Source of the DNA: Opitutaceae bacterium TAV5
Lineage (GTDB): Bacteria; Verrucomicrobiota; Verrucomicrobiia; Opitutales; Opitutaceae
Length of the DNA: 64,000 nucleotides
Assembly: GCA_000242935.3 (NCBI GenBank)
Contig: CP007053.1
Span: 2,961,001-3,025,000 of the forward strand
Direction of reading: 5' to 3'
The first letter of the stretch is position 1; the number at the start of each line of letters is the position of its first letter. The position numbers and the translations under genes are program-made. Under the pieces are notes generated by a model that saw only the letters and a program-made list of their open reading frames with translations, made no database searches and was not told the origin of the DNA. Below are positions 2,661 through 43,353 of the stretch, piece after piece.

Positions 2661-3779
2661 CGCGGCCCGTGACCGGCGGGTGGACGAGGCGGCCCCGTGA
2701 GGGGGCTGCCTGCGTGTGGAGGCGCCCGGCACCCATGCGCCGGCGACCGTCACCATCAGCGCTTCGCCCGGCACGCCGCGCGTGTTGTGGTTGAGCACGG
2801 CGATCAGCAGATCGATGCCTGCCGCGCCCACGCGATCGGGATGCTGGTCAATGTGCGAAAACGCCTGCCCCTCGTTCACACCCTCCAGTGATATAAAACC
2901 CACTTCCTCCGGCACGCGCAGACGCGCCCGCCGCAGCCATTCGTAAAACACCACGCGGGAGGCGAGGATGACATCGGGCCTGTGCTTCAATCGCCATGCG
3001 GCGAACCGCTTGTATTCCGGTTCCGCCTCCGGCGCGCGCGCGGACTCCGGCCCCGGATCGGGTCCGAGCCCGCACAGCTCCAGCACCGGCAGGCGAGGCA
3101 GGCCGGCGCGGGTGTACTGATAATCGAGATACGCCGAACGGATGGCGTGGGCACTGCGTTCATTGACGTAGTCGTCGAGCATCAGCCCGATGCGGCGGTA
3201 GCCGAGCGCATGCGCCTCGGCGAGGGCGAGGCGGCTGTTCTCGAAATTGCGCGGACGGGCGCGGTGCATGGTCACATCGGGAAACGCCGCCGTGGCCGCG
3301 ACGACCGAAAACCGCTCCCAGGCGAAGGCGAATGTGCGGCTGTCCTCATCCGCCACCGGCCCCGCCAGCACGCCGCGCACGCCGCGATTGACGAGCACCG
3401 ACTGGAGACGCCGGGGCGTCATGCCCGGCTCGCGGGCCCAGTATTCTTCCAGCCGATATCCCAGCGCTTCGGCATGGGTGCGCGCACCGTGAAAGAGCCG
3501 TCTGGTGTAAAGGTTGCCGGCACGTTCGATCCGGTCTTCGTGCCACGACAAAAACGCCAGCGTCTCCACATAACGCCCCGCCTTTCGCTCCCGCAGCAGG
3601 CGCAGCGCTGCGCTCAATTCCGGGTCGGGCCGGTAACCGAGTTTCCGGGCTATCGCCTGCACGCGTTCGCAGGTCGCCGCCGGCACGCGCGGATCGTTGC
3701 GCAAGGCCCGGCTCACACCCGAGCGGGAGAGTCCCGTCGCGCGGGCGATATCGTTGAGCGTTACCCTGCTGGCGAACAT
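2628..3779 (-). CDS. LacI-family transcriptional regulator
   Basis: DNA-binding repressor or activator of about 383 aa. The N-terminus is a classic LacI helix-turn-helix (VTLNDIARATGLSRSGVSRAL, then a hinge with KLGYRPDPELSAAL). A periplasmic-binding-protein-like effector domain follows, with HALGYRRIGLMLDD and RVPEEVGFISLEG. It belongs to the same subgroup as the regulator at 5309-6379, sharing GYRLEE and MTP(R/K)RL. The ATG at 3779 puts the HTH right at the N-terminus; the frame also stays open to an ATG at 3851. The gene lies about 120 bases downstream of the fucosidase gene on the same strand and probably responds to a sugar released by it. The last ~30 residues (Arg-, Ser- and Pro-rich) go beyond the usual LacI end and overlap the convergent ATPase gene, which suggests a lost original stop codon. 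The ligand is unknown. Confidence 0.85.
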   Translation of the reverse strand: MFASRVTLNDIARATGLSRSGVSRALRNDPRVPAATCERVQAIARKLGYRPDPELSAALRLLRERKAGRYVETLAFLSWHEDRIERAGNLYTRRLFHGARTHAEALGYRLEEYWAREPGMTPRRLQSVLVNRGVRGVLAGPVADEDSRTFAFAWERFSVVAATAAFPDVTMHRARPRNFENSRLALAEAHALGYRRIGLMLDDYVNERSAHAIRSAYLDYQYTRAGLPRLPVLELCGLGPDPGPESARAPEAEPEYKRFAAWRLKHRPDVILASRVVFYEWLRRARLRVPEEVGFISLEGVNEGQAFSHIDQHPDRVGAAGIDLLIAVLNHNTRGVPGEALMVTVAGAWVPGASTRRQPPHGAASSTRRSRAASPVLPEQQPE

Positions 3780-3900: not shown

Positions 3901-5010
3901 TCATCCGCGGTTGCCGGCGCCTGCTCCCTCGCCGCCGTCCGTTATCGGCCCGGGCAGTCCTTCCGCCCGCACGCGTCGGCCCAGCGCTCGCAACGTTTCC
4001 ACATCCGCCGGATGCAGCGAACCGTCGGCGCGCGGCGCGGTGTTGAGCAGAAAATTGGCTCCCTGCCGCCGCGCTGCCGCCAGTTCGGCCCATGCTTCGT
4101 CCGCAGTCCGGTGATAAGCGCGTTCCACATTGAACCACATCCGCCAGCCGGAACCGCCGGGCTGGTCCAGTTGCAACGTCGTGCACACCTCGACCGGTTT
4201 GCCACGATGGCGTTCCGCGATGACACAGCCCGCGCCGCCCGCCTCCGCGTTTTCCGGCAGGCCGTGCCGGTGCTCGAACGTCAGGTAATCCTCGTCGCCC
4301 TGCACGCCCTCGCAGAACGAGATCAGGCCGTGCGGCTGCAACGTGCGCAGCAGCGCATATGTTTCGGCAAGCCGTGGATATTTCTCCGGCTCGCGATGGA
4401 AATGCGGCGCCGAGTCGATCCACCAGCCGGCGACCGGCCCATAGTTGCGGCCAAGCTCGGTCAGCAACGCCCGGTTGCGGGCCCACACCGCGTCATGGGA
4501 TTCCGACAACGTGAAATGCACGTAGTGAAAATAGCCCAGCCCGCGCCGCGCGCACGCCGCCGACAATTCGGCGACGAGATCGCGTCCTGCCGGCAGTCGC
4601 ATGGACGAGGGTTCGCCCACCGCCGAGTCCCACAAATATGGACCTCCGCCATGATACGGCGTGAAGCACACATAACGCGCTCCGGCCTCCGCCGCCAGGC
4701 CGGCGATGGCATCCGCATCAAACCGCTCCGCCCGAAATCGCGCCGACAGTTGCTCAAATGTCACGCCGGCCGGCAGCGGGTCATATTTGCTGCCGGGGAG
4801 CAGGCTCGTGTTGTTGTAGTGGACGAACAATCCGAACGCCGCTTCACGAAACCATTCCACGGAAGCGGCTCGCAGGGAACCTGTTTCCGAATACGCATGA
4901 ACCGCGGCCGCACACGGCGCGAGGTGAGGCGGAAGCAGGAGGGACGCTGGAGGCCGGGAAACAGTGCCGTCGGCGACGGACGAGGTGGAGACGGTTGCGG
5001 GTTTTGACAT
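3901..5010 (-). CDS. GH29-like alpha-L-fucosidase
   Basis: Glycosidase of about 369 aa that probably releases terminal alpha-L-fucose. Family features in order: an N-terminal WFREAAFGLFVHYN, matching the GH29 WF(R/K)xAKFGxFxHWG start; a RYVCFTPYHGG strand; a WWID segment near residue 196 where GH29 carries its catalytic Asp; and a C-terminal GANFLLNTAPRADGSLHPAD, matching the GH29 NxLLNxGPxxDG signature. It is shorter than many GH29 enzymes and lacks an added C-terminal domain. I chose the ATG at 5010; a start at 5049 would add 13 residues. No convincing signal peptide is visible, so it may act in the cytoplasm on imported oligosaccharides. It is followed by a LacI regulator and preceded by a decayed glutaminase-like gene. 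Substrate specificity is inferred from family only. Confidence 0.75.
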   Translation of the reverse strand: MSKPATVSTSSVADGTVSRPPASLLLPPHLAPCAAAVHAYSETGSLRAASVEWFREAAFGLFVHYNNTSLLPGSKYDPLPAGVTFEQLSARFRAERFDADAIAGLAAEAGARYVCFTPYHGGGPYLWDSAVGEPSSMRLPAGRDLVAELSAACARRGLGYFHYVHFTLSESHDAVWARNRALLTELGRNYGPVAGWWIDSAPHFHREPEKYPRLAETYALLRTLQPHGLISFCEGVQGDEDYLTFEHRHGLPENAEAGGAGCVIAERHRGKPVEVCTTLQLDQPGGSGWRMWFNVERAYHRTADEAWAELAAARRQGANFLLNTAPRADGSLHPADVETLRALGRRVRAEGLPGPITDGGEGAGAGNRG

Positions 5011-5061
5011 GACGCGTGAAACACCAGCACACCGCCGCGCCTGCGACAAACTGCCTGGTGC

Positions 5062-27907: not shown

Positions 27908-30559
27908 TCAGGGACAGACAAAGATAGGCCAGAGATCGGGGGTCTTTTGGTCGCCGAGGCCGTCGGAGAGCTTGACCCATTGCTTGCGGCCCTTGGCGTC
28001 ATTGTCGTTCACGATGAATGTGAGGCGGAAGCTGTCGGAGGGCGGTTTCCCGTCCTTGCCGCCGAGCGCGGCCCACGGCAGGCGGATGCGATAGGTGGCG
28101 GCGGCGGATTGGTCGCGCGAGACGGTGTAGTTGACCGGCGGATCCAGGCGTCCGAGCGGGAGGGCGCTGTCGGGCGTGGTGGAAAAGACCCAGCCGCCGG
28201 TCTTGCCGTCGTTGCCGAGCGCGAGGCCGAGTTCGATGTAGCCTGAATCGGTTTCAAGCAGCCGGATGCCGATCTGGAGGCTGTCCCCGGCCCAGAGTTC
28301 TTCCCGGATGTTGGTCTGGTGATGGACATCGTCACGGGCGACCACCTCGATGTGCAGGGCCGCGCCATCATGGGCGATACGGGCGGTGGCGCTGAGGTCG
28401 CCGGGGCCGTGCCAGTGCATGGCGGGCAAGGGCTCGGCGGAGTAGAGGTTGAAGATGTCGGTCTGGCGGTCGAGCCGGGCGAGGGGAGGGAGGCTTCCGA
28501 TCCCGGAACCGGAGGCGAGCGCGGGGACTTGTTTCGCGAGAACGAGGGGGATGCGTGCCGGCAGGTCAAGACCGGCTTCCGGGATGGAAAGGTGGAGATT
28601 GAGCACAGGACGGTGCTTGTCGTTGGATGATGGCGGCGGGGATGCCGGGGCGAGGTGCAGGTCGAGCGATTGGCGAACGGTTTCACCGGGCTTGAGGGTG
28701 ATTGGCGGATGGTCCGCGGGCAGGGTGAGGCCGGGGAGGTCGGAGGTGAGCCGGAGTTGCGCGGTGGCGGCGGCAGCGAGTGGATTTGATATCTGGATAC
28801 GCAGGGGGGAGGGCGCATCGGGGATGAGGACGAGAAGCGGCGGTGCGTCGAGGATGGGCTTGATAACGAGGCGTGGAGCCTGGTCGTGGTTTATATGAAC
28901 ATAAACGGGCTCACGGGAGAGGTCGATCACGGCGCCCTGATCGGTGATGGAGGCGGGAAGGGGGTTGCCCATGAGGTTGAGCACTTGAGTTATGCGAGCT
29001 TGTGAGTTGTCCGTGCCGAGCCAGACCGGGACGTTTCGGCTGGAACCTTCCTGCCAGAGGACAAGGACGTGCGAGGCGTGTTGGCCGGCCGGGGAGTCCG
29101 TCCGTTCGTAAAGGTGCGCCCACGTGCCGGGAGGAAGCTCGGCGGCGGGAAGGGAGCTGTGGTAGCGGGCGGAGCCGAGTTCGCGGATGAGGTTTTGGTA
29201 GGCGGACCAGGCGGGTTTGGGCTGGCCGTCGTAGCGCGTCAGGCCGAAGTGGTGTTCGGGTTCGCGCGGATCGAGGCCGTCGTCGCGGAGGTTGTACCAG
29301 AAGTAGGCGGAGATGCCCTGCGCGGGCGAGGTCGTGAGCTTTTTCACGAGGGTGAGAGCCTGCTCATGTTCTCCACCGGCGAGAAGGGTGTGGTGCCCGC
29401 CTTCGTTGATCCAGAGCGGCATGTCGGGAGAGAGGTTTGCCAGGTGCTCGCCGACTTCGGCCCGGCGGGTGAGGAACTGGGCAAAGGTATGGTAATCATG
29501 ATACGCAAAAACGTCCCAGTTGGACTTGTCGGCCCTGGCGACAAACGTTTGGACGAAGTCGGGATTGGGCTGGCGCTTGACCATGGCGAGGCCGCCGTTG
29601 AGGACCTGGGCGCGCGGGGAGGCTTTTTTGATGAGGGCGGAGCTTGTGTTAAAAAGCTCGATATACTGTTCGGTGGTGGCGCGCCAGAAGCTGATGTCGG
29701 GCTCGTTCCAGATTTCCCAATAGCGGGCGCGCTCGCCGTAGCGTTCCATGACGGTGCGGACGTAAGTGTGCCACGGGGTGAGGCGGGGGGCGGTTTTGTT
29801 CCAGTCGTTCCAGTCCTTGGCGTTGGGGTCGCCGGTGGAGGCCCAGCGGGTGGTGTAGGCGAAGATGGGCTGGATTTCGATGCCGAGCGGGGTGAGGGTG
29901 TCGAGGACTTGGTCGGCGGCTTTCCAGTTCCATTGTCCCTCGGAGGGCTGGGTGCTTTCCCAGCCGGCGAGTTCGGTGCGGATAATATCGATACCGAGGC
30001 GGTCGGCGAGGGCGGCTTCTTTTTCGAAGAGGGGCGTGCCGATGTGGCGGCGCATGTGGGAGCAGAGGCCGTAGCGGAAGTGCCGGCCGGTGCTGCGCGG
30101 AGTGTGGCCGACGGAAAAGGTGCGCGTCTGGCGGTCGATCAGGGCGTCGCTGGTGTCGCGGAGTTCGAGGGCGACTTCGTGCCAGCCAAGGGCGGATGGC
30201 GTGTGATCGAGGTTGATGACGGCGTTGTCGCCAGGTGGGATTGCAGGGACGGGGATTTCTCCGGAGGGAGCGGGTGTATCGGACGGGTTCGCTTGCGGCC
30301 AGGCGGAGACTGTCCAGACCAGACGGGAACCGCTCAAGGGAGTTGTCGTGGAGGGATTGACCAGCGTGATTCTCCATTTCAGGGATTCGCCGGGAGCGTA
30401 AACTTCCACGGGCTGGCCGGTGCGGATTTTGCGAATGGCGGACGGTGGCCGGGTTCCTGGCGGATTTGCCGCGTGCGATGCAACGGGATCAACGATACAG
30501 GCGAGCGCGGTCAGAGCCGCAAGGGAGACGAGGCGAAGCGGGGGATGTGAAAATTTCAC
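27908..30559 (-). CDS. Clan GH-A glycosidase (GH39-like) with C-terminal CBM9-like domain
   Basis: Secreted enzyme of 883 aa. Signal peptide (LVSLAALTALACIVDPVASHA), a beta-sandwich (about 35-150), a TIM barrel (about 155-480), beta domains and a C-terminal CBM9/DOMON-like domain (about 690-883, with RIAHDGAALHIEVVARDD and GDSLQIGIR). The acid/base Glu is in YWEIWNEPDISFW (about 281) and the nucleophile Glu in LWINEGGHH (about 385). The start is GTG at 30559 and overlaps the TGA of the LamG-like gene by four bases (GTGA), so translation is probably coupled. The architecture matches that of 16149-18875. Xylosidase or related activity is possible but not provable from sequence. Confidence 0.82.
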   Translation of the reverse strand: MKFSHPPLRLVSLAALTALACIVDPVASHAANPPGTRPPSAIRKIRTGQPVEVYAPGESLKWRITLVNPSTTTPLSGSRLVWTVSAWPQANPSDTPAPSGEIPVPAIPPGDNAVINLDHTPSALGWHEVALELRDTSDALIDRQTRTFSVGHTPRSTGRHFRYGLCSHMRRHIGTPLFEKEAALADRLGIDIIRTELAGWESTQPSEGQWNWKAADQVLDTLTPLGIEIQPIFAYTTRWASTGDPNAKDWNDWNKTAPRLTPWHTYVRTVMERYGERARYWEIWNEPDISFWRATTEQYIELFNTSSALIKKASPRAQVLNGGLAMVKRQPNPDFVQTFVARADKSNWDVFAYHDYHTFAQFLTRRAEVGEHLANLSPDMPLWINEGGHHTLLAGGEHEQALTLVKKLTTSPAQGISAYFWYNLRDDGLDPREPEHHFGLTRYDGQPKPAWSAYQNLIRELGSARYHSSLPAAELPPGTWAHLYERTDSPAGQHASHVLVLWQEGSSRNVPVWLGTDNSQARITQVLNLMGNPLPASITDQGAVIDLSREPVYVHINHDQAPRLVIKPILDAPPLLVLIPDAPSPLRIQISNPLAAAATAQLRLTSDLPGLTLPADHPPITLKPGETVRQSLDLHLAPASPPPSSNDKHRPVLNLHLSIPEAGLDLPARIPLVLAKQVPALASGSGIGSLPPLARLDRQTDIFNLYSAEPLPAMHWHGPGDLSATARIAHDGAALHIEVVARDDVHHQTNIREELWAGDSLQIGIRLLETDSGYIELGLALGNDGKTGGWVFSTTPDSALPLGRLDPPVNYTVSRDQSAAATYRIRLPWAALGGKDGKPPSDSFRLTFIVNDNDAKGRKQWVKLSDGLGDQKTPDLWPIFVCP

Positions 30560-31290
30560 GGGACGGCGGTGACATCGATGTTGTCGAGGAAGAGGATGGC
30601 GGCGCCATGGCGGTCAACCGGGGCGAAGTCGGCGACGGTGGAAAGGCGGTCGATGGACTTGGGCGCGGAGGCGAGCCAGGGAACGGCGTTGGCGACTTTT
30701 TTGCCGTCAAGCCAAAGGTCGAGGGTGCGGGCGGTGATGTCGAGTTCTGCCTTGAGAGCGTGCCATTTGCCGGGTTGGTAAGCTCCCACCGTGAGGCGGG
30801 TGGTGTCGCCTTTGTTGGCGTGGAGGATGATTTTGCCATCGGCAAGAAGGACGGCGGCGGCCGAGCTGTCCCAGGAGCCGCCGAGGAAGTGAATGCCGAG
30901 GAAGGGCGGCTCGACGGGAACCAGAAACTCCCAGGAGAGAGTCAGGCGTCCGGAGGTTGGGGCCTTGTCTTTCCAGGGGAATACCAGACTCGAACTTTTG
31001 TTAAGGGCCGGAGAGTTGTCGTGGATGGCGATCACGTTGAGGCGATCTTTTCCGGTGGCGGTGGACTCGGAGCCGGGGAATTGATCGGTGATCTCGATGC
31101 GGCCGAATTCGCGTTCAGACGGACCTTCCCACGGAATGATGTGCGGGTAGCGGCCGGAAGCTACGTGGCCAACGGGCAGGGAATCGAAGTTCTCTTTGAC
31201 GAGCGTTTGGGCGGTGAGTGAGGGCAATGGCAGAGTAACCAAAAGTGCGACAAGCATTGCGGATGCGTTAATGAGTGCGGTGGTATTCAT
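30556..31290 (-). CDS. Secreted LamG/concanavalin-like protein
   Basis: Exported protein of 244 aa with a signal peptide (SAMLVALLVTLPLPSLTAQ). The body begins TLVKENFDSLPVGHVASG and ends GAAILFLDNIDVTAVP, with central strands GRLTLSWEFLVPVEPPFLGI and KWHALKAELDITARTLDLWLDGKKV. This last part, a strand followed by LDGKKV, is typical of concanavalin-like jelly-roll glycan-binding domains. It is similar in plan to 21224-21991. It is coupled by a 4-base overlap to the GH39-like gene downstream, and lies 63 bases after the pseudopilin gene. Likely role: extracellular sugar binding next to the enzyme. Confidence 0.75.
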   Translation of the reverse strand: MNTTALINASAMLVALLVTLPLPSLTAQTLVKENFDSLPVGHVASGRYPHIIPWEGPSEREFGRIEITDQFPGSESTATGKDRLNVIAIHDNSPALNKSSSLVFPWKDKAPTSGRLTLSWEFLVPVEPPFLGIHFLGGSWDSSAAAVLLADGKIILHANKGDTTRLTVGAYQPGKWHALKAELDITARTLDLWLDGKKVANAVPWLASAPKSIDRLSTVADFAPVDRHGAAILFLDNIDVTAVP

Positions 31291-31353
31291 GGAGAGAGAA
31301 ATGCGTATTCGGATTGCGAGGAAGGATTGGGCGCGGCTGTTTTGATTCCCGGC

Positions 31354-32064
31354 TTAGAACGCCCGCTCTTCGTTATCCCCGGTTTTAAGCAGATAGTAGT
31401 TGAGGCCGTCTTTCGGGATTGCTTCGACATGACCGTCCACGAACAAGACGTTGTCGCGTCCTTTGTGCCAGAGTGCCTGGAAATCCCGATACATGTAGGC
31501 GTAGTTGCGAATGAATACAGTGCCGGTGTTTGAATCGACGACGAGGGCGGTGATGCTGGGGCGCGTGAATTGGGTGATGCTTCGGGCTGTTGAGATATCG
31601 GTGTCGTTATCGCCAAAGCAGTTCATGCTGTAGGAGAGACGCGGGATGTCGCCGGGGCCGTCCATGTTATAATTGCCTTTGCCAGGATCGTGAAAAACGC
31701 CGCCATAAATCGCGGATATTTTCCCGTTAAAATCGCTGACCGCCGGTTTTTTGTTTTCCATGTAAGGCTGGAGGGCGGTCATCCAGACATCATTGTACCA
31801 ATCGCCGCCTGATGCGCGTGGCGGCGGAAAAAATCCCTTGTTGGCCTCCGCGTAAAGCGACATGGCGACACCGATTTGGCGCAGGTTGCTTTTGCAAACG
31901 GCGGCGCGACCGCTTTTGCGAACTTCACCAACCGTGGGAATGAGGATGGCGGCGAGGATGCCGATGATGGCGATGACGGTGAGCAGCTCAATGAGGGTGA
32001 ATCCACGCCGGATAGAGGATTGGCATATGTTGGTGATGGGCGGGAATTGGATATGCGTTGCCAT
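31354..32064 (-). CDS. Type II pseudopilin-like protein with H-X9-DG motif
   Basis: Protein of 236 aa. The prepilin helix is [21 protein letters not shown] after a short basic leader (SSIRR). [21 protein letters not shown] follows. Near the C-terminus, WHKGRDNVLFVDGHVEAIP contains the exact H-X9-DG motif, followed by DGLNYYLLK. In related phyla this motif marks a large family of pseudopilins associated with processing and secretion. It is closely similar to the protein at 38718-39431. A 36-base repeat with an operator-like palindrome lies about 90-120 bases upstream, identical to one in front of the LacI gene at 40578. It heads the LamG and GH39-like genes. Confidence 0.87.
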   Translation of the reverse strand: MATHIQFPPITNICQSSIRRGFTLIELLTVIAIIGILAAILIPTVGEVRKSGRAAVCKSNLRQIGVAMSLYAEANKGFFPPPRASGGDWYNDVWMTALQPYMENKKPAVSDFNGKISAIYGGVFHDPGKGNYNMDGPGDIPRLSYSMNCFGDNDTDISTARSITQFTRPSITALVVDSNTGTVFIRNYAYMYRDFQALWHKGRDNVLFVDGHVEAIPKDGLNYYLLKTGDNEERAF

Positions 32065-32150
32065 GGGAAGAAGCAGAGTTTGGGTGGACGGGGAAAAAGC
32101 CGGATTCGAATGGAGAAGTGAATTGGGGTTACCTTACAGGCGGGTTTTAG

Positions 32151-32186
32151 AAAGGCAGGGAAAGAAATGGTTGCCATGTAAACCTG
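32151..32186. promoter_or_regulatory. Shared 36-base element with operator-like core GGTTGCCATGTAAACC
   Basis: The 36 bases are identical to 40490-40525. The core (32169-32184) is an imperfect palindrome: GGTTGCCA against GGTTTACA read from the other strand, centred on CATG. It lies about 105 bases upstream of the pseudopilin start at 32064. A near copy lies at 43173-43188. It is probably a LacI-type operator. Confidence 0.6.
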
Positions 32187-32322
32187 CTGCGAGGCCCCTC
32201 TTGTAAGGTGATCAGTTTGGCGGTGAAGAGAGAGGGGCGGCAATCAGGGGACGGAGGAGACTCGCTTTTGGAATCGGGCGCTTTTTGGTTTGCGGAGGCG
32301 GCCAGCAAGGACGGTTTCCTGG

Positions 32323-32790
32323 TCATGGGCGAAGGGTGTTGTCGGGCCATTTCATGAGGTAATAATTCACACCATTTTGGGGCAGGGCTTCAACGTGGCC
32401 GTCGGCACGTACAGTTCGCCGGAGCTGAGACCTTTTGATGGTAAGGGGGACCGAGGCTTGCGGGCTCTGAAAGCTGCCGCCGGCAACGGCGCAGGCGAAA
32501 AGGTTGTCCTGCGTGGCCGTGGACGGATAGGCGGCATCGCCGGTGGGGTTGGCTGTTCCCGATGAGGGATTGGCGTCTCCGAATGCAGTGCAACTAAGGG
32601 TGAGCGGAGTCGCGGCGCCGGTGCTGTCGATGAGCGGGACATTGGAGCCCCCTCCGGGGACGGTGATGTTGTTCCAGCCAGGTACGGTTGTCGGGTTGGC
32701 AGATGATCCGAAGTCGATATAGATCGTAGCGGAATGGCATGCAAGCGGAGCAAGCAACGAGAACGCCAGGATTTTGAGGAATGTTTTCAT
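32323..32790 (-). pseudogene. Chimeric relic: start of a secreted (PEP-CTERM type) gene joined to the end of a pseudopilin gene
   Basis: The frame is open for 155 codons but it joins unrelated parts. The first ~120 residues are a signal peptide (FLKILAFSLLAPLACHSA) and the start of an exported protein (TIYIDFGSSANPTTVPGWNN, common in PEP-CTERM proteins). The last ~28 residues, [20 protein letters not shown] and on to NTLRP, match the end of the pseudopilin at 38718 ([19 protein letters not shown] ... IRP). DNA homology to that pseudopilin stops near 32405. There is no pilin helix and no PEP signal, so neither parent function can be intact. A deletion or recombination between two cassettes best explains it. 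A product might still be exported. Confidence 0.75.
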
Positions 32791-33125
32791 GGTTTTTGAT
32801 GTAATGTTTGGGTGGACTGACGAGGTGAGGACGGCACTTTGGCGGGTGTCGATTTGGTCTGTAAAACCAGATAGCCATGTTTTCGATACAAACTGTATCT
32901 ATATAGTTGTGACATTCAGCATGATGATCCGGCCATTGCCGGGTGGATACAATGAAGGCGCACCGGATGCGGGTGCGTCTTTTTTCAATACGGATGATTC
33001 GATTATTGGGATGAGGGGGAGGACGGTTCAGCGAGAGGCTGATATCGGAGCGTTATGCGCCTTGGAATGGACGGAGTCGGCGGTCTTTTTTCCTCGGTGC
33101 ATAATGAGAGGTGCTGTGGCGTATA
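32791..33125. other. 335-base gap with a possible small transcript
   Basis: No coding frame stands out. A short palindrome GATACAAACTGTATC lies near 32885. A hairpin (32959-32964 with 32972-32977) followed by a T run at 32980-32985 looks like a plus-strand terminator, although no plus-strand gene ends here. A small plus-strand RNA is possible but not shown. The segment is less GC-rich than its surroundings. Confidence 0.35.
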
Positions 33126-33818
33126 TCATTGGCCGTTACCTGAGCGGAGCGCCGCTTTGTGGCGGCGTCGCCAGAAAGCGAGGCAGATCGCGCATGCGCC
33201 GAAGAGCGCGGCATAGGTGACGGGCTCGGGGATGTTCCCTGTTGTGAGGGTGGCGCTCAGTTGCTCGACAGGCGACGAGCCCCCTGTCGGAATGGAAAAT
33301 GCATAAAGGCTGTAGAGACCGCCAGTATCGGCAGGGGCCACCCACGCCATCATAGAATTATCAACTATTGCATCCGAGCGAAAAAAACCGTAGTTTAAGC
33401 CTGATGTGACGATGGAACCTGCATCCGTAACGGTCGGAAACCAGTAGAATGCCAGCAGGTCACCAACATTAAGACCAGGAATATCGGAATATGAATATGT
33501 GCTCAAAGTTCCTCCAAAACCGTTTACCCCGCCCAGATCAACAGCGGTGTAAGTATTGAGAATATATACATTGTCCGCGCCAAAAGTGGAGCCGGTCGAG
33601 AAAGTGGACCCGACAAGCGCCTCGTCTTGGGCGAAACCCGCCCCAGTGGTATCGACGACCAAGACACCGATCACACCAAGAGCCACCGGCGCGCCGGATG
33701 CATCGAATGTCTCAATCTGAAAATCTATGGCAATATTCGCAAGTGACATGCCTGCGCTTGCACATATAATCAGGAAGAGCTTCGTGGTTTTATTCAACAT
33801 GATCATTGTTTTATTCAT
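33126..33818 (-). CDS. PEP-CTERM sorted secreted protein
   Basis: Exported protein of 230 aa. Signal peptide (KLFLIICASAGMSLA), then a beta-rich domain (IAIDFQIETFDASGAPVALG, QDEALVGSTFSTGSTFGADN), then a PEP-CTERM signal: IPEPVTYAALFGACAICLAF followed by WRRRHK. Similar proteins in this phylum are surface-displayed, but I cannot name the domain. It starts 30 bases after the stop of the 1595-aa protein, so the two are almost surely cotranscribed. Base composition is more A+T-rich than that of the other secreted genes, like the 3' part of its upstream neighbour, which suggests a common origin for this block. Confidence 0.82.
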   Translation of the reverse strand: MNKTMIMLNKTTKLFLIICASAGMSLANIAIDFQIETFDASGAPVALGVIGVLVVDTTGAGFAQDEALVGSTFSTGSTFGADNVYILNTYTAVDLGGVNGFGGTLSTYSYSDIPGLNVGDLLAFYWFPTVTDAGSIVTSGLNYGFFRSDAIVDNSMMAWVAPADTGGLYSLYAFSIPTGGSSPVEQLSATLTTGNIPEPVTYAALFGACAICLAFWRRRHKAALRSGNGQ

Positions 33819-33848
33819 ATCTATTTTGTTGTTTTGGTTATTCTGACA

Positions 33849-36800
33849 TCAATATAATGGATTGTTGGTGAAATAAGAAACACCTCCGTCTGTTGTCGGA
33901 TATTTTCGGATCACCAGCCCCGCGCCAACCGGGATTATGTAATCGTTGGAGACAGGGAATCCCGATGTGCTTTCCACCCAATTGTTACCTGTCCTAAAAA
34001 ATGATCTGGAAGGAGCCTTGTTGAGCGATGCTGCCTCGTTGTCGAAAACGAGAACTTCGTCCCTACGCTGTAGGCCAAGGGTACCGTTGCTGGGAACGAA
34101 GGCGTTTTCCAACCCGAGTTGGTCGAGACGCAACTCCATCGGCCGCTGTATAAACAGCCAAGTGTCCTGCTTGTTATCCGCAAGAGATGACAGAAAAATG
34201 GAAATTGGATGGAGATTAACACTGGCGAGCGATTCCATCACTGTGTCGCTGCTGACCGTGGCAGGATGGCGGATAATGAAACAGACGTCAGGCAAGAGTA
34301 TCCGGGAGCCAGCTTCGGGAAAGCCTGCGTCTGTGCTGCGCCATCCGCCGGCCGCTGTGATAAAATATTGTTGTTTGGGCGGCAGGTTACTTCCGGAGCC
34401 GGTATAATCGGGCAGGAGCAATTCGGAACGCCTCTGAATGCCCAGAGTACCGGCTGACACTACAAAAGTTGTTTGCGTGGCCGGAGGGAATAGTTCATCC
34501 AATGTCCAGTATCCGATCAGATCAAATTGAGAGGCGACAATATCGTCGGAAATAATTTCACCCAGCGTAATAAACTTGAGGCTGTTTGATGAATTTTCCG
34601 TTACGGTAAAGTATTTGCCTGCCAAGGGGCCTGTTTTGAATCGGATATAATGGGAAGCGGCAAAAATATCGTTTGGCCAAGCAGGATTACCGGGAACCCC
34701 AATCGTAGCGATTCCGTCTGTAATTCCCCCAAATGTCTCTGTAAGACCGGAGAAAGAGGCACTTTTCTCCAATGGGACACCGAGCAAGGTGTCCGAGTTC
34801 GCCTTGCATATTATTTTCACAAGACCGACAAGGGATGACGTAATATATTGAGAGAATGAAGCGGACGAACTGACGGCGAGCCGTAAAAACCTGCGGGCAT
34901 GATTGGAGATGAGTTCAGTGTCCACGGCGGTGTAGTAACCGGCGACGTTTTCAGCACCCGTGCTGGTAAAGACTGGTATCCACTGGCCGGAAACCAGATC
35001 ATCAGTCGCTTCCACCGTGTAGGTGAGATCAGGATCGGCGATACGGGTGAAGGTCAGAGCGAGGCGCTGGCTATCCGTGCTTTTGCCGATGGTGACGGCC
35101 CCGGCGCTGTCGCTCAGAAGTGGGTCGAGGCCGAGGGCGTATTCGAGGAGGTTGGGCAGGCCGTCGCCGTCGGGATCGGCGGAGTCGGCGGCTTCTCCGG
35201 CGTTGTCAGTGGTGCCGAATTGATCCTGCCGCCAAGTCTCCAGCGAGGTAAGCGGCGGCGGGGTGTCGGTGGTGGTGGCGAGGGCGGCATTGCCGAGGGC
35301 GAGGGCGGTTGTCTCGTCCAGCGCGCTGTCATAAATCTGCACGTCGGCGAACGACATGGCGACACCGGCTCCTGCCTTTATCCGGCCAAGGCCAAAGGCT
35401 TGGAAGTTGTTCAGAGATGCAAAGGCCGCCGATGACACGTAGGCGCCGTTGATGAACATGTCCAGTTGACCGCCGTTCTTGGCCGAATTGTAGATGGCCA
35501 CGACGGTAAACCATTCGCCGACCGCCGGTTTGGCATTGGACCCGCTCACAAAAGCCTCCGGGGTGCCGTTTTTCATGTAAACGGCTTCCTGGGTGCCGGT
35601 GTTCATGCCGACCAAGGTGGCGTGAGGCCAGTCCGTCCCGACGAATGTGCTGTTGTTGAAGAGTCCCCAGTTGAAGGTGCCGCCGGGAGGGGCCGCGTCG
35701 TAACGCAGGGTGATGATGAAGGTGGCGGCGGAGCCGAGGGAGGGGAGGGCCGTGCTGTTGATGGCGGTGTCGAGAAGCAGGGCGTTGGCGGGGAGAGAGA
35801 CGTAGCCGCCGGAATCGGAGGAGTGGGTTGCCGTTCCGGAACCGAGCGCCGTGAGGGTATGACCGCCGGTGGTGAGGTCGGCGGAGGTGCCGGTCTCGAA
35901 GGTCCAGTGGAGGGCGAGCGGGGTCGGTTCGGGGTCAGGATCGGGCGGGGGAGTGGAGCCGAGGTAGGGTGTCAGCAGCGTCACCAGGTTTTCCGTGAGA
36001 GTGGCGTGGCCGGCTTCGTTGGGGTGGATGTTGTCACTGCCGATGGCGACGTTCCAGGATGTGGTATCCACATAATGGATTTTGGTGTCGCCGGCATCGA
36101 TGCGGGCCTGGGCGGCGTCGCGGATGGCGGTCTGGACGTCGGCGGCGGGGATGCTGACGGGGCGCATCACGAAGATCCCGGCGGAGGGATGCGTGGCGCG
36201 GACTTGCTGAAGGAAGGTCTGATAGGCGGTCCGGAAGGCGGTGACTTCCGGGGCGTTGCCGGTGATCTGGGCAAAGTCGTTGGTGCCGAGGTTGATCACG
36301 ATGAGGTTGGGATGGGGGGCGGCGGTGAAATCCCATGCGCCGCCGGTGCCGTAGCCGGGCATGCCTTTCTGGAACCAGGCGGACTCCATGCCGGAGCGGA
36401 CAAAGACGCCGGCGGGCAGGGTGTAGTAGCCGCGTCCGTCGCGGAGGGCGATGCCGGGCCAGGCGATGCGGGTGCTTTCCACGCCGAGTTGCTCGGGGAC
36501 GAGCCAGGAATAGCCGTTGTTCCAGGCGGTGATGGAGTCGCCGATGAATTCGATGAGGTTGGGATTGACGGCGGGGGCGGCGAGCGCGCCGGTGTCGTCG
36601 AGCACGAGGGAGTCGAAGAGTATCCGGTCGTCGAGGGTGAGGGCGGCGATGCGGAGGGTGTGGGTGTCGTCGAGCGAGAGGTTGGCAGCGATGGTGACCA
36701 GGCCGCTGACGTTGTTGTAGTCGGTGCGGACGCCGTCGAGCAGCACGCTGAGGCTGGCGGCTTGGAGGAGGTTGATTTTCACCGAGGAGGTGTGGGTGAC

Positions 36801-38717: not shown

Positions 38718-39431
38718 TCAGGGGCGGATGGAGTCGTCGTCGGGGTCGGCGGTTTTCATGAGGTAGTAGTTCACGCTGTCTTTGGGGAGGGCTTCGACGT
38801 GGCCGTCGGCGAAGAGCATGTTGTTTTTTCCCTTATGCCAGAGGGCGATGTCGGCGGCGTTGTCGTAGAGATAGTTCGCGTTGCGGAGATGGCAGGTCGC
38901 GGTGTTGCTGTCGGACACGAGGAGGGTGATGGTGGGCTGGCCGAGGGAGGAAAGGGTGCGCTGCGTTGTGGTGTCCCCGCCGTTGCTGAAGGCATTCATC
39001 GCGTAGGAATTTTTTTCGCGATCCGTAGGGCCATCGATGTTGAAGTTGGTTTTGCCGGGGCAGCGGAAGATGCCGCCGAAGACAGCATCGATTGCGTTGG
39101 TCTGATTTTGCTTGTTTTCGAGGTAGGGCTGGAGCTGCCACTGCCACATTTTTTCGTTCCAGATGGTGGTGTCTCCGCCCCATGCGACGGGCAGTTTGTC
39201 CCTGTTGGCCTGGGCGTGCATGACCATGGCGACACCGATTTGGCGGAGGTTGCTGATGCAGGAGGCGGCCTGAGCGCTTTTACGGACGGCACCGACAGTA
39301 GGGATGAGGATAGCGGCAAGAACACCGATGATCGCAATGACGGTGAGAAGTTCGATCAGGGTAAAACCACGCCGGTTGATCGGAGTGGCGCGCGATGCCG
39401 TTGCAGACGGGAATCGGGTATGTATTGCCAT
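38718..39431 (-). CDS. Type II pseudopilin-like protein with H-X9-DG motif
   Basis: Protein of about 237 aa. Basic leader ending INRRG, then [20 protein letters not shown]. Next is [21 protein letters not shown], and near the end [19 protein letters not shown] with the exact H-X9-DG spacing, followed by [20 protein letters not shown] chose the ATG at 39431, which places the leader at normal length; the frame is open to 39539, but that adds an unlikely hydrophobic stretch. It is the closest relative of 31354-32064 and the source-type of the fragment in the chimera at 32323. It lies between two LamG genes and probably shares their transcript. Confidence 0.87.
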
Positions 39432-39523: not shown

Positions 39524-40375
39524 TTAGGAACGACCCCATGGCCGGTTTCTTCCGCAGGTCCGGGCGAAGACAACAGAGAGTGTGGCGGCAACTCCGAGCA
39601 AAATGACAGCGGTTTGTGGTTCGGGAACGGCGGTGGAGGCGAGTGCGGCGTTGCCGAGGGAGACGGCGGTGGCTTCGTTGAGAGCGCTGTCGTAAATTTG
39701 GACGTCGGCGAACGACATGGAGACGCCGGCGCCCTCCTTGATTCTGCCGATGCCGAAAGCCTGGAAGGCGTTGAGAGTGATGCCGGTGGCCGTCTGGACG
39801 TAGGCGCCGTTGAGGAAGAGATCGAGGCGTCCGTTGTTGCGTGCGGAGTCGTAGATGGCGACGAGAGTGAACCAGTCGCCGACGTCGGGGACACTGGCGG
39901 TGTTGGGAAAGGCCTCGTTGACGCCGTTTTTGGTGTAAACGCCTTCGCGGATGCCGCTGTTCATGCCAACGAGAGTGGCGTGCTGCCAGTCGGTGCCGGC
40001 GGAGGTGGTGTTGTTGAAGATGCCCCAGTTGAACGTGCCGCCGGGAGAGGGTTCATCATAGCGCATGGTGATGATGAAGGTGGCGGCGGAGCCGAGGTCT
40101 GGAGTATCGTTACTGTTGATACTGGTGCTGACGAGGAGGGCGTTGTTCGGAAGTGAAACGTATCCACCGGAGTCGGACGAATGGCTGATCGCTCCCGAAC
40201 CGAGCGCCGCGAGGGTGTGCCCGCCGGCGGTGAGATCGGCGGCGGTGCCGGTGGCGAATGTCCAGTGTGCAAGTGCGGTTTGAGCGATGGCAGGGAGAGC
40301 GGTCAGCAGGAGACCCAGGACGATGGTGACAAGGCTCATGGAGCCTCGGGATGGTTGCGAATTCATGATGTTCAT
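39524..40375 (-). CDS. LamG-domain protein with PEP-CTERM signal
   Basis: Exported protein of 283 aa. Signal peptide ([16 protein letters not shown]), one LamG/concanavalin domain ([20 protein letters not shown] ... [19 protein letters not shown]) and a C-terminal PEP-CTERM signal ([20 protein letters not shown], then RTCGRNR). The LamG domain is nearly the same as the second LamG of the 1595-aa protein, including [13 protein letters not shown] and FNWGIFNN segments, so one arose by duplication of the other. It is divergent from the LacI gene at 40578, with the 36-base operator element between them, so it is a likely direct target of that regulator. Expected on the cell surface, binding glycan. 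Confidence 0.85.
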
Positions 40376-40489: not shown

Positions 40490-40525
40490 AAAGGCAGGGA
40501 AAGAAATGGTTGCCATGTAAACCTG
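40490..40525. promoter_or_regulatory. Second copy of the 36-base element, core GGTTGCCATGTAAACC
   Basis: Identical to 32151-32186. The core (40508-40523) lies 55 bases before the LacI start at 40578 and about 130 bases before the divergent LamG gene start. Its position fits control of both genes, including autoregulation of the LacI protein. Confidence 0.62.
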
Positions 40526-43014: not shown

Positions 43015-43353
43015 GGTTTGCTGCGAGGATGGAAGTGTGTGGCAGGAGGTCGGCTGGTGGCGAAGTGGCGTCGATCAGAAAGTCGAAAATACCTCTCGGG
43101 TGAAAACCGAAAAAACAGGACGCGGATCCATGGCGTTTATGGTGGAAGTCGAAGAATGGCAGATGCGGAGATGATTGCCACGTAAACCTCCGGATGACCG
43201 GAAGACCCGCGCTACGGACGATGGTCGTGAGCCGCATGGATACTGAAGATTGCCGCCTCGTGGTGCGTGGTTTCCGTCAGGGCCTTTGTCCTTGCGCCAG
43301 CGGGTGGCGGTCTTCCAGGCTCTTCCTGTTTTCGGTTCCCTCGTCTTTCTCCC
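43015..43353. other. 339-base divergent gap between regulator remnant and OadG-like gene
   Basis: It contains the operator-like site at 43173-43188 and otherwise no coding frame that I can support. It marks the border between the glycan-cassette region and the core-type genes to the right. Confidence 0.4.
43173..43188. promoter_or_regulatory. Near copy of the operator-like core (GATTGCCACGTAAACC)
   Basis: Differs at two positions from GGTTGCCATGTAAACC found at 32169 and 40508. Located 159 bases upstream of the GntR remnant start. The flanking bases are only partly similar to the 36-base element. Confidence 0.45.

Follow-up and report, generated by a model that had tools for sequence, protein, structure and literature searches.

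An open reading frame composed of half a secreted domain and a pseudopilin tail in Opitutaceae bacterium TAV5

Introduction

Fusion pseudogenes arise by deletions between adjacent bacterial genes. The open reading frame (ORF) considered here, from the termite-gut bacterium Opitutaceae bacterium TAV5, resembles them in consisting of two partial genes of the same orientation, in having its frame broken near the join and in showing no conservation, whereas it differs from them in that an intact neighbouring pair at its site was not found in the genomes searched. Two protein families share one part each with this ORF. The pseudopilins of the DUF1559 / H-X9-DG type (PF07596, PF07963, TIGR02532 and TIGR04294) correspond to its last 27 residues, but it lacks their prepilin N-terminus and the H of their tail, and nearly nine tenths of a pseudopilin are absent. 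The other family is characterised by a secreted DFG...GWNN domain (alignment A1). In this case the likeness extends over the signal peptide and positions 1-103 of the 182 that make up the domain, with the final 8 of these in the wrong frame; in contrast to the family, the ORF lacks the second half of the domain as well as any C-terminal sorting motif.

Large sets of pseudopilin genes have been described in other bacteria. Excerpts of one report concern a verrucomicrobium with 67 homologous pseudopilins, for which six transfers and duplication are invoked and in which a pseudopilin is over-expressed on alginate (PMC13274419), and an excerpt of another mentions 68 DUF1559 paralogs in Planctopirus limnophila (PMC10632474). 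As far as these excerpts go, both fit a large and fast-changing set of pseudopilin genes.

The locus and its gene order

The window, that is to say the whole stretch of 64,000 bases that was analysed, corresponds to bases 2961001-3025000 of a contig of 7,317,842 bases, in a genome of 7,417,673 bases and 2 contigs. From the ORF list, the Pfam/NCBIfam searches and a gene finder, a cluster of genes can be followed along the minus strand. It begins with a secreted-protein gene (39524-40375, recognised in the ORF list and by the gene finder), whose product has no Pfam or NCBIfam family at its cut-off and, by eye, seems to us to carry a VPEP motif at the C-terminus. Directly downstream stands an intact pseudopilin gene (pseudopilin A; 38718-39431, 237 residues) with N_methyl and DUF1559 domains, which scores 18.9 bits against TIGR04294 (cut-off 19); the two genes constitute a local example of a secreted gene/pseudopilin pair. 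Then come a gene whose product of 1595 residues matches GDSL, laminin-G and TIGR02597, a PEP-CTERM-like gene with a score under the cut-off (33126-33818) and the ORF under study (32323-32790, 155 codons). The next gene downstream of it codes for a second intact pseudopilin with N_methyl and DUF1559 domains (pseudopilin B; 31354-32064), and the cluster closes with two further genes, one (30556-31290) whose product looks secreted and one (27908-30559) whose product matches glycoside hydrolases.

Some putative regulatory sites lie in the same region. The element AAATGGTTGCCATGTAAACC is present at 32165-32184, 40504-40523 and 43169-43188 (read on the plus strand) as two exact copies and one with 3 mismatches, with no occurrence in 100 shuffles. 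One exact copy is located upstream of pseudopilin B, the other between a LacI-type gene (40578) and 39524-40375; the element is a near palindrome (GGTT...AACC) and is possibly an operator of the LacI-type regulator. Besides, the palindrome GATACAAACTGTATC, with 5-base arms, lies at 32885-32899, about 95 bases upstream of the start codon of the ORF, and could be a regulator site. Over 31300-33900, promoter and terminator sites were predicted about as often as in shuffled sequences.

The two parts of the open reading frame

Sequence comparison bore out that 32323-32790 is a chimera of two gene families, namely half of a secreted domain followed by a pseudopilin tail. On the minus strand, the 5' part (32437-32790, residues 1-118) comprises a signal peptide and the first half of the DFG...GWNN domain, as recognised by profile scores and an in-frame, coding-like codon bias. 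It is followed by an AAAA run (32433-32436), one A beyond what the family needs, where the ORF departs from the frame of the secreted domain, and by a stretch (32407-32432) which continues that domain in another frame as GLSSGELY plus two bases and which the ORF reads as part of RSQLRRTVR. The 3' part (32323-32406) holds the pseudopilin tail, recognised by its DNA match to 38718-39431, and the stop codon. Codon bias is coding-like in both remnants and the ORF contains no internal stop; a search of the whole ORF against Pfam and NCBIfam gave nothing at E<=0.1.

The original prediction had given the tail some 28 residues, and such a tail is indeed there at the end, its length being 27 (residues 129-155). 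It had also regarded the first 120 or so residues as a PEP-CTERM-type exported protein. A signal peptide is present, but there is no PEP-CTERM motif in the ORF: the N-terminal part is better described as half of an unnamed secreted domain, of which only some intact members end in PEP-CTERM. Residues 120-128 fit neither family in the frame of the ORF, while the other frame continues the secreted domain there.

The sharp stop of DNA similarity that had been noticed near 32405 can be placed at the border 32406/32407, within 2 bases, because 53 of 66 bases match pseudopilin A on the tail side of the junction as against 14 of 60 on the other side in a base-by-base comparison.

The secreted domain and the break of its frame

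Relatives of the N-terminal part were found by protein search in genomes of the family and of the class. They share a domain of about 180 positions with DFG and GWNN motifs, a central GL-x5-Y-x-FTF-ASR motif (GLxPxxxYxFTFFASR) and the end YLGxLxI, which occurs either alone, with a signal peptide and a PEP-CTERM end, or inside larger proteins. Examples from alignment A1 are L041:1096-1824, L077:1883-2932 and L135:2835-4532; one large protein with the domain looks SGNH-like to us. Ten relatives of this alignment gave no family match except single weak ones at E values of 0.018-0.074, and on this basis the DFG...GWNN domain can be considered an unnamed secreted domain of the Verrucomicrobiota that lacks a Pfam or NCBIfam model. 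In the genome of TAV5 only one other such domain was detected at E<=0.1, a full one at 4760612, within a 942-residue protein with a metallophosphatase domain.

The N-terminal half with DFG and GWNN is present in the ORF, where a profile built from 11 relatives scores 47.1 bits and a second one of 13 other stretches 68.7 bits. It covers positions 1-103 of the 182 profile positions, the last 8 in another frame, whereas the intact relatives hold the full domain; neither the complete domain with its GLxPxxxYxFTFFASR centre and YLGxLxI end nor, at E<=0.1, a PEP-CTERM C-terminus (PF07589, TIGR02595) with its motif, helix and basic end is found in it.

After lysine 119 the ORF reads RSQLRRTVR. This frame was rejected as a continuation of the domain through the junction, the first profile giving 46.8 bits with these residues and 47.1 without them. 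When one A of 32433-32436 is skipped, the reading becomes GLSSGELYV, which aligns without gaps to the GLxPxxxY of the family and raises the score by 4.0 to 51.1 bits, a value reached by 3 of 5000 shuffles of the 27 bases and by 1 of 5000 stretches drawn at random from the window. The second profile, built from 13 other domain stretches (12 loci of the class search and one of the family search, with borders set by the first profile and one stretch of fewer than 120 residues left out), rises from 68.7 to 72.5 bits, a score that 4 of 5000 shuffles reach. Because both profiles gain from GLSSGELYV, the secreted domain reaches as far as the junction, with its frame lost through a single base 26 bases before the join. 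Over 32366-32500 the codon bias in frame is down to 0.02, which is weak evidence because values over 32681-32815 are equally low (-0.05 and -0.07).

The pseudopilin tail and the pseudopilin genes of the genome

A repeat search aligned 32341-32406 with 38745-38810, 80% of 66 bases being identical. When the whole genome was searched by DNA, pseudopilin A, which the original prediction had named as the match, was the closest tail (E=4e-10, 84% over 57 bases), and second came a pseudopilin at 206313 of the genome (E=8.6e-6, 80% over 54 bases); all remaining rows had E values of 0.05 or more. At the protein level, among 8 tails compared, a pseudopilin of another genome (G134) scored 108 and the gene at 206 kb 100, against 94 for pseudopilin A. 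Judging from these comparisons, the tail is a member of the general pseudopilin family and cannot be recognised as a recent copy of 38718-39431. The prepilin N-terminal motif GFTLxE with its helix was not found in the ORF by Pfam/NCBIfam at E<=0.1, nor was there a TIGR04294 match; of the H-X9-DG motif, DG and the following residues are there, but residue 120 is R instead of H. The whole-genome DNA search also took in 123 bases of downstream flank, for which no match was better than E=0.37, and therefore no pseudopilin 3' flank was carried along.

Related to this, the heads and tails of pseudopilins were counted over the genome. There are at least 150 prepilin heads (best 150 of 287 candidates scored). 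The tails were taken as TIGR04294 matches, also the best 150 of 401 candidates scored, and 90 of these 150 have a listed head 474-645 bases upstream. The remaining 60 comprise 9 in loci already analysed (8 with a head and one without) and 51 others, 48 of which have a head, the last three (3994171, 6478708 and 6090442) being set aside as chance matches. Thus, 146 of the best 150 of 401 tails have heads and one has none. The tail of the chimera, which is outside this list, is the second headless tail, and a search for the DGHVE pattern (45 sites) led to the same two, once seven headless frames (in loci L091, L093, L097, L100, L105, L123 and L127) had been excluded on visual inspection as unrelated or antisense. 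Adding the heads beside tails, the genome holds at least 206 prepilin-type heads (150 + 8 + 48), which corresponds to about 3.5% of the 5,950 coding genes given in its publication (PMC4358385), and the true number is probably higher.

A second broken pseudopilin was observed at L121:3568-5048 (genome 4054500-4063500). Its head is 81% identical to an intact neighbour over 144 bases and is followed by an open frame of about 760 bases, in which codon bias is negative in all three frames, the other two having 12 and 20 stops. An orphan tail follows at 4826-5048, in a frame of 73 codons (76% over 68 bases). The source of the insert was sought in the genome itself, where only the insert was found, and in 120 genomes, which gave one weak match (E=0.009). 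This bacterium thus offers more than one case of a pseudopilin gene that was broken and became attached to other sequence.

Conservation and gene pairs

The fused protein was not encountered as a conserved family: no match covering both parts at E<=1e-4 was found outside its own genome in 200 genomes of the family or 384 of the class (overlapping samples). Including its own, 40 of the 200 family genomes had some match at E<=0.1 and 15 of the 384 class genomes at E<=1e-4. The tail match in G134 begins at residue 124, within the out-of-frame stretch. Ten rows of the family search span the junction at E values of 0.0096-0.084; nine have in-frame stops and one (G004, E=0.07) has none, and we read all ten as chance. 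In the genome itself two rows span the junction by protein, at 29-30% identity; they correspond to pseudopilins A and B and owe their match to the tails. Within the genomes searched, therefore, the chimera does not represent a conserved architecture. A broad scan of a contig collection with the ORF gave 284 pattern matches and no relative, in a collection from which the genome of TAV5 itself may have been left out.

Regarding the origin of the N-terminal half, no close parent was found by protein or DNA in its own genome, by a profile search of the genus (2 genomes), or in the 200 family genomes and the 384 class genomes. The DNA comparison with 57 relatives gave, besides its own genome, a single match of 25 bases (in G015). 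In none of the genomes searched was an intact DFG gene found together with a pseudopilin gene at the site of the chimera. Titles and opening parts of abstracts in the literature held nothing on this ORF.

Pairs of secreted and pseudopilin genes were looked for in the 51 further tail loci of the head and tail count with a crude gene finder based on codon bias and trained on pseudopilins, which under-calls genes (33126-33818 was missed). It called 35 pseudopilins in 34 of the loci; three of the 17 loci without a call are the chance matches mentioned above. A same-strand gene lies within 350 bp upstream of 23 of the 35 pseudopilins: 13 of these genes look secreted by a crude signal-peptide rule, one more encodes a pseudopilin and nine are of other kinds, and a VPEP- or IPEP-type end is present in the last 30 residues of 8 of the 23. 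A secreted gene followed by a pseudopilin gene in one orientation is thus a common pair in this genome. As for DFG genes in particular, 2 of 19 distinct loci of 3-9 kb each (11, from 14 listed of which three are parts of others, plus 8) have a pseudopilin beside them. In G035 a DFG gene with a PEP-CTERM end (to 2932) precedes a same-strand pseudopilin at 3226, with a gap of about 290 bp; in G330 the order is reversed, pseudopilin first and DFG gene second, so that G035 alone has the order needed for the join.

Origin of the join

The account that we lean towards, on a somewhat better than even footing, is that a deletion inside a single gene cluster left behind a degenerate fusion. A gene for a small secreted DFG protein would have stood just upstream of a pseudopilin gene of the same orientation, and a deletion of about 0.9-1.2 kb, a size estimated from intact relatives, would have taken the C-terminal half of the DFG gene, the spacer and all of the pseudopilin except its last 27 codons. 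A separate gain of one base in the A run, 26 bases before the join, would then have brought both remnants into one frame by chance; we infer that the two events came in this order. Any protein made from the ORF would consist of half a domain, exported, then 9 residues without meaning and a pseudopilin tail that lacks its membrane anchor, and for this reason it most likely has no function. A deletion in place would explain the join with no exchange between cassettes, because genes of the two parent types often adjoin in one orientation. A deletion combined with the slip of a single base makes for the shortest explanation, although it is not proven, because no intact pair is seen at the site and DFG genes are only sometimes next to a pseudopilin (2 of 19 loci); the coding-like bias and the stop-free ORF also speak against it.

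The original prediction had seen in the ORF direct evidence of recombination between cassettes, and this is not supported: pseudopilin A, at 84% over 57 bases, is no recognisable donor, and two of the 8 tails compared are nearer by protein. That a pseudopilin tail was copied or recombined into a secreted-protein gene from another cassette is nevertheless an alternative to which we give roughly one chance in four. The closest tail by DNA does lie in the same window, only 6.4 kb away, and in L121 a head is joined to unrelated DNA and then to a separate tail; against this, the chimera brings no pseudopilin 3' flank along, and such joins are rare when set beside the 146 tails with heads (best 150 of 401). 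It is very improbable that the ORF is a young functional gene under selection, such as a secreted protein sorted via a pseudopilin tail. The open frame, the signal peptide and the coding-like bias of both parts would suit such a gene, and so would the extra A that puts the two parts into one frame, but its domain is cut mid-way, 9 residues are out of frame, the prepilin N-terminus and the H of H-X9-DG are missing, and it is not conserved in the family and class samples.

An artefact of the assembly or of base calling seems very improbable. It is true that 454 sequencing miscounts runs, and that more than 200 similar genes favour mis-joins; however, the run in question has four As only, and the best similar stretches (57 bases at 84% and 54 at 80%) would be too short and too unlike to bridge reads. 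The published genome is a Newbler assembly of 454 and Illumina reads (PMC4358385), a point on the side of such an error. Equally far from likely is a broader proposal, according to which the pseudopilin genes and the adjoining secreted genes would form a shuffling set that exchanges heads, middles and tails, with the chimera and L121 as intermediates caught in the process.

Conclusions

The ORF is most likely a one-off scar that carries little weight by itself. It is also a warning that an ORF of this kind should be taken neither as a new protein architecture nor as proof of cassette exchange. If the pseudopilin genes and their secreted neighbours did form a shuffling set, new surface or secreted proteins would arise through such joins. 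What the chimera contributes meanwhile is help in counting how often pseudopilin tails are cut from their heads in this bacterium, the chimera and one other tail standing against 146 that have kept their heads among the best 150 of 401 candidates.
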